Part shown: piece after piece, positions 1,795-5,079 of the stretch
Position numbering within the stretch: position 1 is the first letter of the stretch
Layout of the letters: every line of letters begins with the position of its first letter
DNA from: J088 sp003695505 [NCBI: Candidatus Dadabacteria bacterium]
Lineage (GTDB): Bacteria; J088
Direction of reading: 5' to 3'
Assembly: GCA_003695505.1 (NCBI GenBank)
Contig: RFIY01000029.1
Span: forward strand, 1-5,079
DNA length: 5,079 nt
Made by a program: the position numbers and the translations under genes
The notes under the pieces: generated by a model
The model's database searches: none
The model's input: the letters and a program-made list of their open reading frames with translations, nothing else
Told to the model about the DNA's origin: nothing

Positions 1795-3849
1795 TCAGGG
1801 GTTCCAGGGTAGCAGCACGCTTCCGGCTGTGTCGGCCGGGCGCTCTACGGGCGACGCGATGACGGCGAGTTCGGATACGGTGTACAGCCATGCATTGTTG
1901 CCGCTGGCCATCAGTGCCGATCGCTGCGGGAATGCCGGCCACCACCAGATGTACGGTTCGCATTCGCCGTTGCACAGTGCCGGACGCGCGAGTGCTGCGT
2001 GGTCGATGCGGCCGCGTTCCGACAGTGTGCCCGCCGTCGGGTCGACGTCGATGACGAGTACACCCGCAAAGCCATTGTCTGTGTCGTAGTCGTAGTAGCT
2101 CCACGGAAACGCCAGCGTACCCGTCGGCGCATCGTAGAGAAAGGCGTGCGGATCGTAGCTGGCCGGAGACCAGTCCCAGCCATTGGTATCCGCTGGCACG
2201 AAGCGTGTCACCTGCCGTGGTGCACTCAGATCCGCGACATCGAACAGTTGTACGGCGACGCCACCGACATTGCCCGTGTCGTCGCCGTCGCGTCCGATCG
2301 TCAACAGCAGGTCGCCGTCGAGCGGATGCATATAGGTGCTGAAACCGGGGATCGTCAGTTCGCCGACAAGCTGGGGGTTCAGCGGATCGCTCAGATCGAA
2401 CGCGAACAGCGGGTCGATCTGCCGGAACGTGACGAGAAAGGCGCGGTCGTCAACATAGCGCGCCGCGAAGATCTGCTCGCCTGGAGCGATGCCGGTGATC
2501 GCGGCGGCGACGGTCATTGGATTCTCGTCGATCGGCAGGACATAGAGGCTGCTGGATAGCCGGGCGTCATTGCCACCGTTCTCCGGTACACCCGTCGTGA
2601 ACAGGCGCAGATATCCGTCGCGCTCGCTGATCTGGTAGCGATCACTGAGCCAGCCATCGACGACGCCGGCCGCTTCGTAGGTCGGGGTGTCGTTGTCGAT
2701 CGAGAAGCGCCAGATGGCGGTCTGCTGCGGATGCTGGTTGCCGAACCACCACCAGCCGCCGCTCGACTGGATCAGATACAGATTGTCCGCGGTGGCGTAG
2801 ACCAGCCACGCCTCGTTGAGCACGCCGGCCTGCTCGATCTGCTCACCGCGCAGATCCATCGACGTGACCATGACGAGCGATGGAAACACATCGACACTGC
2901 GCGGTGCTGAAATTGCGTCACAGGCGAGGCGCTGGCGAACTTCGCCATCCTGCCAGGTCGTCGGACGCAACTGTGGTGCGTCAGCAGGCGGCAGGATGCC
3001 ATCAAGTTCGGTGCGCAGGCGCTCACGCAGGCGTCGCGTCTCGGCACTGTTGGCGTCTTCCCAGGCCGCCGTGCGCAGCCGGTCTGCCAGATCCAGGACG
3101 TTTTGATGCTCGTAGAGTCCGTTGAAAGAGGGCCGAAAGCCGCTGACGATCAACAGGTGGCCGCCGACGCGGCGGCTGTCGATGTAGTGCCCCTCGATCG
3201 TGGTTTCACGCAGGATGTCGAGGGATTGCGCGTCCAGCGACGTGACGACGACCTCGGGCGAGCCGGACGGCGCAATGTCCTCCGCGATCGCGACATCGGC
3301 TTCGACACTTCTGCCATCGACGAAGCCATCACCGCTCCAGCGCTGCCCGATCGCGACCAGCGTATTGCTGTCATGGTCGTAGTAGATACCGATCGGTGCC
3401 CAGCCCAGCGTGCGCGAGGCCAGCACCGTCATGGACTCGGGCGGAAAGGCATCGATGCGCACGACCGACGTACCAGAGATCGTGTACAGGTCGCCGTCGG
3501 GCGACGTTTCGATCCGATCGGCCTCGTCAACTCCGGCCTCCTGGACGTTCGTGGTCGACGTGCGATCCGGCGTGGCCGCGCCCTCCTCGGTCGCCGCATC
3601 CGCGACGGCACCGTCGAGCGCCAGCACTTCATAGGGCTGGGTGTTCATTTGACTGGCGATCCAGCTGTCGATGAGCTGCTTACGCCAGGAGGTGCAGTCG
3701 CTGATTCGCGACAGTCGCAGCGATTCGGCGTCCGGCTTGCCGGAGGTGTTCTGCATCCGGCCGCTGATCTGCTCGAAACAGGAGGCTGACAGCAGGCAAC
3801 AGTACAGCGCCAGCCAGCGTCGGCACGCAAATGTAAGACGACCAATCAT
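1795..3849 (-). CDS. Exported beta-propeller domain protein (Beta_propel, PF09826-like)
   Basis: A 684-residue protein of unknown biochemical role. The N-terminus MIGRLTFACRRWLALYCCLLSASC is basic then hydrophobic, a signal peptide. Cys24 could be lipidated, but the preceding LSAS is a poor lipobox, so a soluble periplasmic or exported form is equally possible. After a low-complexity linker, the family signature TNVQEAGVDEADRIET starts near residue 100, where the propeller begins. Later family-like segments are FRQIDPLFAFDLSDPLNPQL and IPGFSTYMHPLDGDLLLTIG, roughly residues 475-520. Homologues are annotated as secreted proteins with a C-terminal propeller distantly related to WD40 repeats. 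A tryptophan-rich GGWWWFG lies near residue 365 and another WWW near the C-terminus. The open frame extends to 3915, but that start would overlap the divergent gene and precede the signal peptide. No clear Shine-Dalgarno sequence precedes 3849. Confidence 0.85.
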   Translation of the reverse strand: MIGRLTFACRRWLALYCCLLSASCFEQISGRMQNTSGKPDAESLRLSRISDCTSWRKQLIDSWIASQMNTQPYEVLALDGAVADAATEEGAATPDRTSTTNVQEAGVDEADRIETSPDGDLYTISGTSVVRIDAFPPESMTVLASRTLGWAPIGIYYDHDSNTLVAIGQRWSGDGFVDGRSVEADVAIAEDIAPSGSPEVVVTSLDAQSLDILRETTIEGHYIDSRRVGGHLLIVSGFRPSFNGLYEHQNVLDLADRLRTAAWEDANSAETRRLRERLRTELDGILPPADAPQLRPTTWQDGEVRQRLACDAISAPRSVDVFPSLVMVTSMDLRGEQIEQAGVLNEAWLVYATADNLYLIQSSGGWWWFGNQHPQQTAIWRFSIDNDTPTYEAAGVVDGWLSDRYQISERDGYLRLFTTGVPENGGNDARLSSSLYVLPIDENPMTVAAAITGIAPGEQIFAARYVDDRAFLVTFRQIDPLFAFDLSDPLNPQLVGELTIPGFSTYMHPLDGDLLLTIGRDGDDTGNVGGVAVQLFDVADLSAPRQVTRFVPADTNGWDWSPASYDPHAFLYDAPTGTLAFPWSYYDYDTDNGFAGVLVIDVDPTAGTLSERGRIDHAALARPALCNGECEPYIWWWPAFPQRSALMASGNNAWLYTVSELAVIASPVERPADTAGSVLLPWNP

Positions 3850-4713: not shown

Positions 4714-4741
4714 GTGACGCCTCACCCCCGCGTTGTAAAAT
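4714..4741 (+). promoter_or_regulatory. Candidate promoter of the tRNA-Gly gene
   Basis: GTGACG (4714-4719, four of six to TTGACA) is followed after 16 nt by TAAAAT (4736-4741, five of six to TATAAT), placed in an AT-rich patch unlike the surroundings. Transcription would begin near 4748, about 13 nt before the mature tRNA 5' end, a normal distance for a bacterial tRNA. No terminator was seen between the NYN gene and this site. Confidence 0.4.
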
Positions 4742-4760: not shown

Positions 4761-4785
4761 GCGGGAATAGCTCAGTTGGTAGAGC
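4761..4785 (+). pseudogene. tRNA-Gly 5' portion (acceptor strand and D arm), interrupted
   Basis: The 25 nt read as acceptor 5' strand GCGGGAA, linker TA, D stem GCTC, D loop AGTTGGTA and D stem GAGC. This is a canonical tRNA beginning, and GCGGG is typical of bacterial tRNA-Gly. Immediately after GAGC the sequence ceases to be tRNA-like; no anticodon stem follows. The missing part appears to resume at about 5036. Whether the transcript can be rejoined is unknown; as it stands the gene is broken. Confidence 0.75.
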
Positions 4786-5039
4786 TTGGGCCCGCATCAT
4801 TCACAAGGGCGCTGCATTTTGGCGGCAAGCGCCTCTGCTCTACGGTTGCTGGTTACGCGAAATTGAGACAATACAGGACGCATGCGGGCCGCTATCGCGC
4901 AGCGTCCGGGTCTTAGCACGCCCCATGCGCCCGATTCGCCTGCAAACGTAGTCCCTGCTACGCTTTTCGGCAAATCGAACACCTGAGCCGCACTCAGCCC
5001 CGGACCAGAGCGCGATCCCTCGCGAACGATGCGGGCCAA
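4786..5039. mobile_element. Structured element with inverted ends inside tRNA-Gly (undescribed; MITE-like or intron-like)
   Basis: The left end TTGGGCCCGCATCATTC (4786-4802) and the reverse complement of the right end, TTGGCCCGCATCGTTC (5024-5039), differ by one gap and one substitution. A third copy of the core ATGCGGGCC is internal (4882-4890). Between the ends are at least five hairpins in a row: 4808-4833, 4876-4907 (10 bp with one bulge), 4932-4977 (20-nt arms, 15 matching), 4983-4997 and 5011-5024. No transposase is encoded, and an 80-codon open frame on the - strand has no recognisable character. It could be a MITE-like insertion, a structured intron or ncRNA, or an assembly artefact near a contig end. 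I found no convincing group I intron core, though a covariance search is needed to exclude one. Confidence 0.55.
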
Positions 5040-5074
5040 CTTCCCAAGCTGGTTGTCGCGGGTTGTTCGCCTGC
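5036..5074 (+). pseudogene. tRNA-Gly(CCC) 3' portion (anticodon arm and aberrant T arm)
   Basis: CCAAC (5036-5040), loop TTCCCAA (5041-5047) and GCTGG (5048-5052) form an anticodon arm with anticodon CCC at 5043-5045, which decodes glycine and so agrees with the Gly-type acceptor at 4761. The stem has one A-C mismatch, explained if CCAA comes from the element's end rather than an original CCAG. A 5-nt variable loop TTGTC is followed by GCGGG / CCTGC (5058-5062 / 5070-5074), the right size for a T stem, but its loop is TTGTTCG instead of the TTCRANY consensus. The following bases do not pair with the acceptor strand GCGGGAA, and the window ends at 5079. Confidence 0.55.
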
Positions 5075-5079
5075 GGCGA

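Follow-up and report, generated by a model that had tools for sequence, protein, structure and literature searches.

A glycine transfer RNA gene probably broken by a short inverted-end repeat element in a draft Candidatus Dadabacteria genome

A miniature inverted-repeat transposable element (MITE) interrupting the hupL gene was described in Thiomargarita (PMC4853749), and in the archaeon Caldiarchaeum the gene of transfer RNA (tRNA)-Thr carries a 1,868-bp insertion reaching tRNA position 27 (according to the account of this locus in PMC3293823). Presented here is a bacterial locus from Candidatus Dadabacteria bacterium J088 sp003695505 (contig RFIY01000029.1, here C335), in which two pieces of a tRNA-Gly gene, apparently with the anticodon CCC, are separated by a short repeat element with inverted ends. 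The window, i.e., the whole stretch of DNA that was analysed, is this entire contig of 5079 bases, part of a draft genome that totals 2,829,385 bases over 395 contigs and is 84.54% complete; the tRNA-Gly locus takes up the last 319 bases, at the very end of the contig. It is probable that a tRNA-Gly(CCC) gene was broken here by a short non-autonomous element, that its T arm has gone too, and that a pseudogene is what remains, with the codon GGG read by tRNA-Gly(UCC).

The upstream piece, GCGGGAATAGCTCAGTTGGTAGAGC (4761-4785), is a perfect tRNA-Gly 5' half. In the family of G063, a gammaproteobacterial metagenome-assembled genome, 14 of 17 genomes contain exact matches to it of 25 or 26 bases, and all 11 such loci that were fetched and read were the 5' half of an intact tRNA-Gly with the anticodon GCC. 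The Gly-type acceptor and perfect D arm recognized in the first-pass annotation of this DNA are upheld by these matches in intact genes, which, being of the GCC type, identify glycine and not CCC by itself. The downstream piece, from the anticodon stem into the T loop, shares 25 of 29 positions with the genome's own tRNA-Gly(UCC), and its score of 38 exceeds the maximum of 35 among 3812 sampled stretches of 44 nucleotides (nt), none of which scored as high; these were drawn from seven of the genome's loci, with other tRNA genes present in three. The anticodon loop of this piece, TTCCCAA (5041-5047), reads CCC as had been proposed; the anticodon stem, CCAAC/GCTGG, has one mismatch, the UCC gene having CCAGC/GCTGG, and the T stem begins with GCGGG (5058-5062), followed by TT (5063-5064). 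To judge from sequence likeness, both pieces belong to glycine tRNA, and the loop reads CCC. The proposal that they agree on one tRNA-Gly(CCC) holds for the amino acid and for the 3' loop, but the 5' half is not specific to CCC.

The tRNA is broken in two places. Beyond the interrupting segment it does not resume fully: from 5065 the sequence, GTTCGCCTGCGGCGA, is not tRNA, and the contig stops at 5079. A split by 254 bp of non-tRNA sequence had been proposed; the segment measures 250 nt, or 255 nt if CCAAC (5036-5040) is counted as part of it. With CCAAC taken as tRNA, the pieces lack no more than one base between them (position 26); with CCAAC taken mostly as element, they lack about five. 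Neither ARAGORN nor Rfam found a tRNA in the window as it stands, and ARAGORN reported no genes in either of two joined versions with the insert removed; removal restores no recognisable tRNA-Gly(CCC), because the T arm is also broken. The pseudogene setting of ARAGORN gave two unrelated large-intron tRNAs (Thr and Ala) in the uncut stretch, which were taken as noise. When the missing 3' end was sought throughout the genome with a 25-base pattern, allowing up to three mismatches, only the intact GCC and UCC genes matched.

The segment between the pieces has the structure of a short repeat element. Its terminal inverted repeats, 21 nt long and 86% complementary, lie within 3 nt of the borders between tRNA and non-tRNA sequence, and the element follows tRNA position 25 or 26, at the junction of the D arm and the anticodon arm. 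The end sequence, CCGCATCATTCRCRAGGGC, occurs exactly at three places in the 2.83 Mb genome (the window locus, C78 and C167); with up to three mismatches it occurs at 11 places, vs. 3 for a control pattern, so some of the weaker matches are likely due to chance. The copy on C78 is 155 bp long, has both ends, and about 120 bases of one half are common with the window segment; the global alignment of the two scores 60.5, while none of 200 base shuffles exceeded 8.4. The C78 copy lies outside any tRNA, flanked by two reading frames, and extends a few bases into the end of each; one of these frames presumably encodes a sugar transferase. The window segment is too short for a transposase gene, and its long reverse frame (4797-5036) had no match in Pfam or NCBIfam. 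Thus, of the features by which MITEs are recognized, it has terminal inverted repeats, multiple related copies in the genome, albeit in low number, and no transposase gene. Such an element would have inserted at the arm junction by transposition, with the transposase presumably supplied in trans; with the T arm lost too, the resulting pseudogene would give no functional RNA, and GGG would from then on be left to tRNA-Gly(UCC).

Table 1. Features of the tRNA-Gly locus at the end of the window
Feature	Position	Strand	Basis or remark
Promoter-like site GTGACG, 16 nt, TAAAAT	4714..4741	+	Just upstream of the tRNA 5' half; consensus match only
tRNA-Gly 5' half: acceptor 5' strand and D arm (positions 1-25)	4761..4785	+	Exact matches in other genomes
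MITE-like repeat element, no gene recognised	4786..5035	.	Homology to the 155-bp C78 element; shared end sequence
Left terminal inverted repeat	4789..4809	+	Pair I1; 3 nt inside the left border
Element part common with the C78 copy	4791..4909	-	Local alignment, score 61
Right terminal inverted repeat	5017..5037	-	Pair I1; overlaps CCAAC by 2 nt
3' piece of tRNA-Gly(CCC): anticodon arm and variable loop, then the T-stem 5' strand with the first two T-loop bases	5036..5064	+	Likeness to the genome's own tRNA-Gly(UCC)
Non-tRNA sequence in place of the remaining T arm; can pair back with 5053-5063	5065..5079	.	Contig end at 5079

The tRNA set of the genome is compatible with the loss of this gene. 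Rfam gave 35 tRNA matches, of which 32 were over the cut-off, the last of them, on C177, being tRNA-Leu(GAG); the three below it are a broken Gly copy on C74, a tRNA truncated by the end of C295, and the 3' end of a transfer-messenger RNA (tmRNA) gene on C244. The genome-wide look for an intact tRNA-Gly(CCC) that had been suggested yielded none among the 32, in a genome whose incompleteness means that such a gene could lie outside the assembly. Intact tRNA-Gly(UCC) and tRNA-Gly(GCC) are both present. GGG is readable by tRNA-Gly(UCC) via wobble, and the loss of CCC decoding through an insertion that breaks the tRNA body is therefore tolerable, as the first-pass annotation had surmised. Since other tRNAs with C at position 34 (C34) are kept, including Lys CTT, Thr CGT, Pro CGG, Leu CAG and Val CAC, a CCC gene would not be unexpected here. 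Most likely, then, the gene is a defunct spare and not the source of a tRNA produced by some novel route; a small repeat element has apparently cost this genome a dispensable isoacceptor tRNA gene, while other C34 tRNAs are retained.

Several observations weigh against this explanation. With respect to the tRNA, the 5' half alone, as far as its matches go, is no proof of CCC, and the 3' piece, allowing up to two mismatches, had no match in 114 genomes of the class, so the CCC identity derives from the anticodon loop and the likeness to the genome's own UCC gene. With respect to the element, the copies are few, two with both ends (C335 and C78) and one single end (C167), the last differing just outside the pattern, and no flanking target-site duplication of at least 4 nt is seen at the window or the C78 copy; the window borders have a single 4-mer in common, GGGC, and it belongs to the inverted ends. 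End patterns revealed no autonomous parent or transposase, transposase families not having been searched for in this genome. The end pattern matched once among 369 genomes of the class of G076, as did the control, i.e., at chance level; a search of 17 genomes of the order of G063 for the C78 element, run without a positive control, gave no match, and plasmid and phage records contained no match to the element. Finally, because the locus sits at a contig end, a fault in the assembly is conceivable. The search for a parent element likewise gave no match in 5 genomes of the class of G050, and a set of 24 genomes gave two matches at one mismatch, with no clear second end. Among viral contigs, some searches with end patterns or inner motifs gave no matches and others 2, 11 and 2; no second inverted end was seen near these, and by eye they look like ordinary coding DNA. 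No literature was found on the sequences of the element ends or of a hairpin. Given the absence of a target-site duplication, the few copies and the lack of a parent, the element is called MITE-like and is filed under no named family.

Other tRNA fragments and repeats are present in this genome. A second broken tRNA-Gly lies on C74 (3531-3599, minus strand); its first 39 nt are identical to the intact tRNA-Gly(UCC) at C74:3213-3285 and are followed by unrelated sequence. Just downstream of that tRNA-Gly(UCC), a second copy of the tRNA 3' end is interrupted by the hairpin CCCTCCGTAGCCTCCGGCGAAGGAGGG; palindromes of this type turn up repeatedly near tRNA genes of C74. On C125, downstream of tRNA-Gly(GCC), the tRNA 3' end is copied in both inverted and direct orientation (L003 2100-2150), and the copies make up a palindrome with a short spacer at its centre. 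In the region C244:7117-7627 (L150 618-1128), a tmRNA gene with the tag AEPEFALAA is immediately followed by a hairpin repeat of the GCTCGCCTGCGGCGAGC type, present in three copies or more, within which the contig ends. A stretch of C99 (approximately 3075-3330), with the pattern GCTGGTT..TTGTCGCGGGTTGT..TGCGGCGA, resembles the T-arm-plus-tail end of the window without the anticodon arm, amid other T-arm-like palindromes; the match is not significant alone (expectation value, E, 0.44). Finding the downstream segment beside unrelated sequence without tRNA pieces, which had been named as speaking against a split tRNA, is only weakly approached by this stretch.

A broader reading, possible but doubtful, is that the tRNA-Gly genes and tRNA 3' ends of this lineage are preferred landing places for small palindromic repeats. 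It is based on tRNA pieces, broken or duplicated, that are joined to hairpin-forming sequence at C335, C74, C125 and perhaps C99, and on the hairpin repeats directly 3' of the tmRNA gene on C244; against it, self-copies of tRNA (a 12-mer self-match within 300 bases) are found at 3 of 31 tRNAs vs. 2 in the control, with no overall enrichment. An assembly artefact, joining a tRNA-Gly 5' half, a repeat copy and an unrelated tail at the contig end, is unlikely. The terminal position of the locus on a 5079-base contig of a 395-contig draft would favour it, as would the recurrence in the genome of both tRNA-Gly sequence and element ends, but chance joining would not be expected to put both element ends within 3 nt of the tRNA borders, nor to let the 3' piece resume at the start of the anticodon stem. 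It is quite unlikely that the tRNA pieces represent remnants which other mobile elements brought along or left behind, such as copies of attachment sites or tRNA ends, rather than one gene cut once. Fragments of tRNA-Gly do occur beside the intact GCC gene (C125) and UCC gene (C74), a similar T arm plus tail is found on C99, and, given that relatives have GCC-type genes with exactly this 5' half, a common origin of the two pieces in one gene is not required; yet they are in the correct order and strand, with one base at most (or about five, if CCAAC is not tRNA) missing between them, each borders an element end, and no integrase was found among the four window proteins scanned.

That the segment is an intron, or that the halves are joined by unusual processing into a working tRNA-Gly(CCC), is scarcely credible in spite of well conserved tRNA parts, a promoter-like site still upstream, and inverted ends whose pairing in the RNA could draw the halves close: even at E up to 10 there was no match to group I or II introns, nor any covariance-model match to a catalytic core, the insert sits outside the anticodon loop, the locus has an unexceptional fold (z of -1.49, with 8 of 100 shuffles as good), the relative of the segment sits outside tRNA genes, and with the T arm broken a spliced tRNA would need a second removal. 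At the gathering threshold Rfam gave nothing for the segment, and relaxing E to 10 brought up no more than two weak microRNA matches and one weak small RNA match, all far below the gathering scores. Splicing is thus very unlikely, much more so than the landing-place reading, and the unusual processing that the first-pass annotation had offered as its other option is without support, there being no intron family and no tRNA upon removal of the segment; the earlier observation itself was largely right, being confirmed in part, as its interpretation was in part supported. For 'split' bacterial tRNAs at contig ends, repeats may be a better explanation than new RNA processing.

The remainder of the window encodes a thioredoxin-2-like protein, a beta-propeller protein and an NYN-domain protein. 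The promoter-like pattern listed in Table 1 was found once, vs. a shuffle mean of 0.1. Between the thioredoxin and beta-propeller genes (769-1778) there are degenerate direct repeats, mostly about 376 bases apart, including GTAGGAGCGCTTCTTAAGCGCGACC units. In the 80 loci retained out of 528 encoding a relative of the NYN protein, ARAGORN, with introns allowed, found no tRNA-Gly, and the Gly 5'-half pattern matched in three, none with a tRNA-Gly gene. The listed relatives of the genome are kin only at the domain level and gave nothing useful on gene order.

Among described systems, the element of C335 is like MITEs in being short, lacking a transposase gene, having inverted ends and more than one copy in the genome, and interrupting a gene; it differs from them in that no target-site duplication was seen, the copies are very few and no parent insertion sequence was found. 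With bacterial group I introns in tRNA genes it has in common that a tRNA gene is interrupted, whereas the lack of an Rfam group I match, the site outside the anticodon loop and the broken T arm set it apart. As in the disrupted tRNA-Thr of Caldiarchaeum, in what PMC3293823 relates of that locus, the element abuts the tRNA body and lies next to tRNA fragments.
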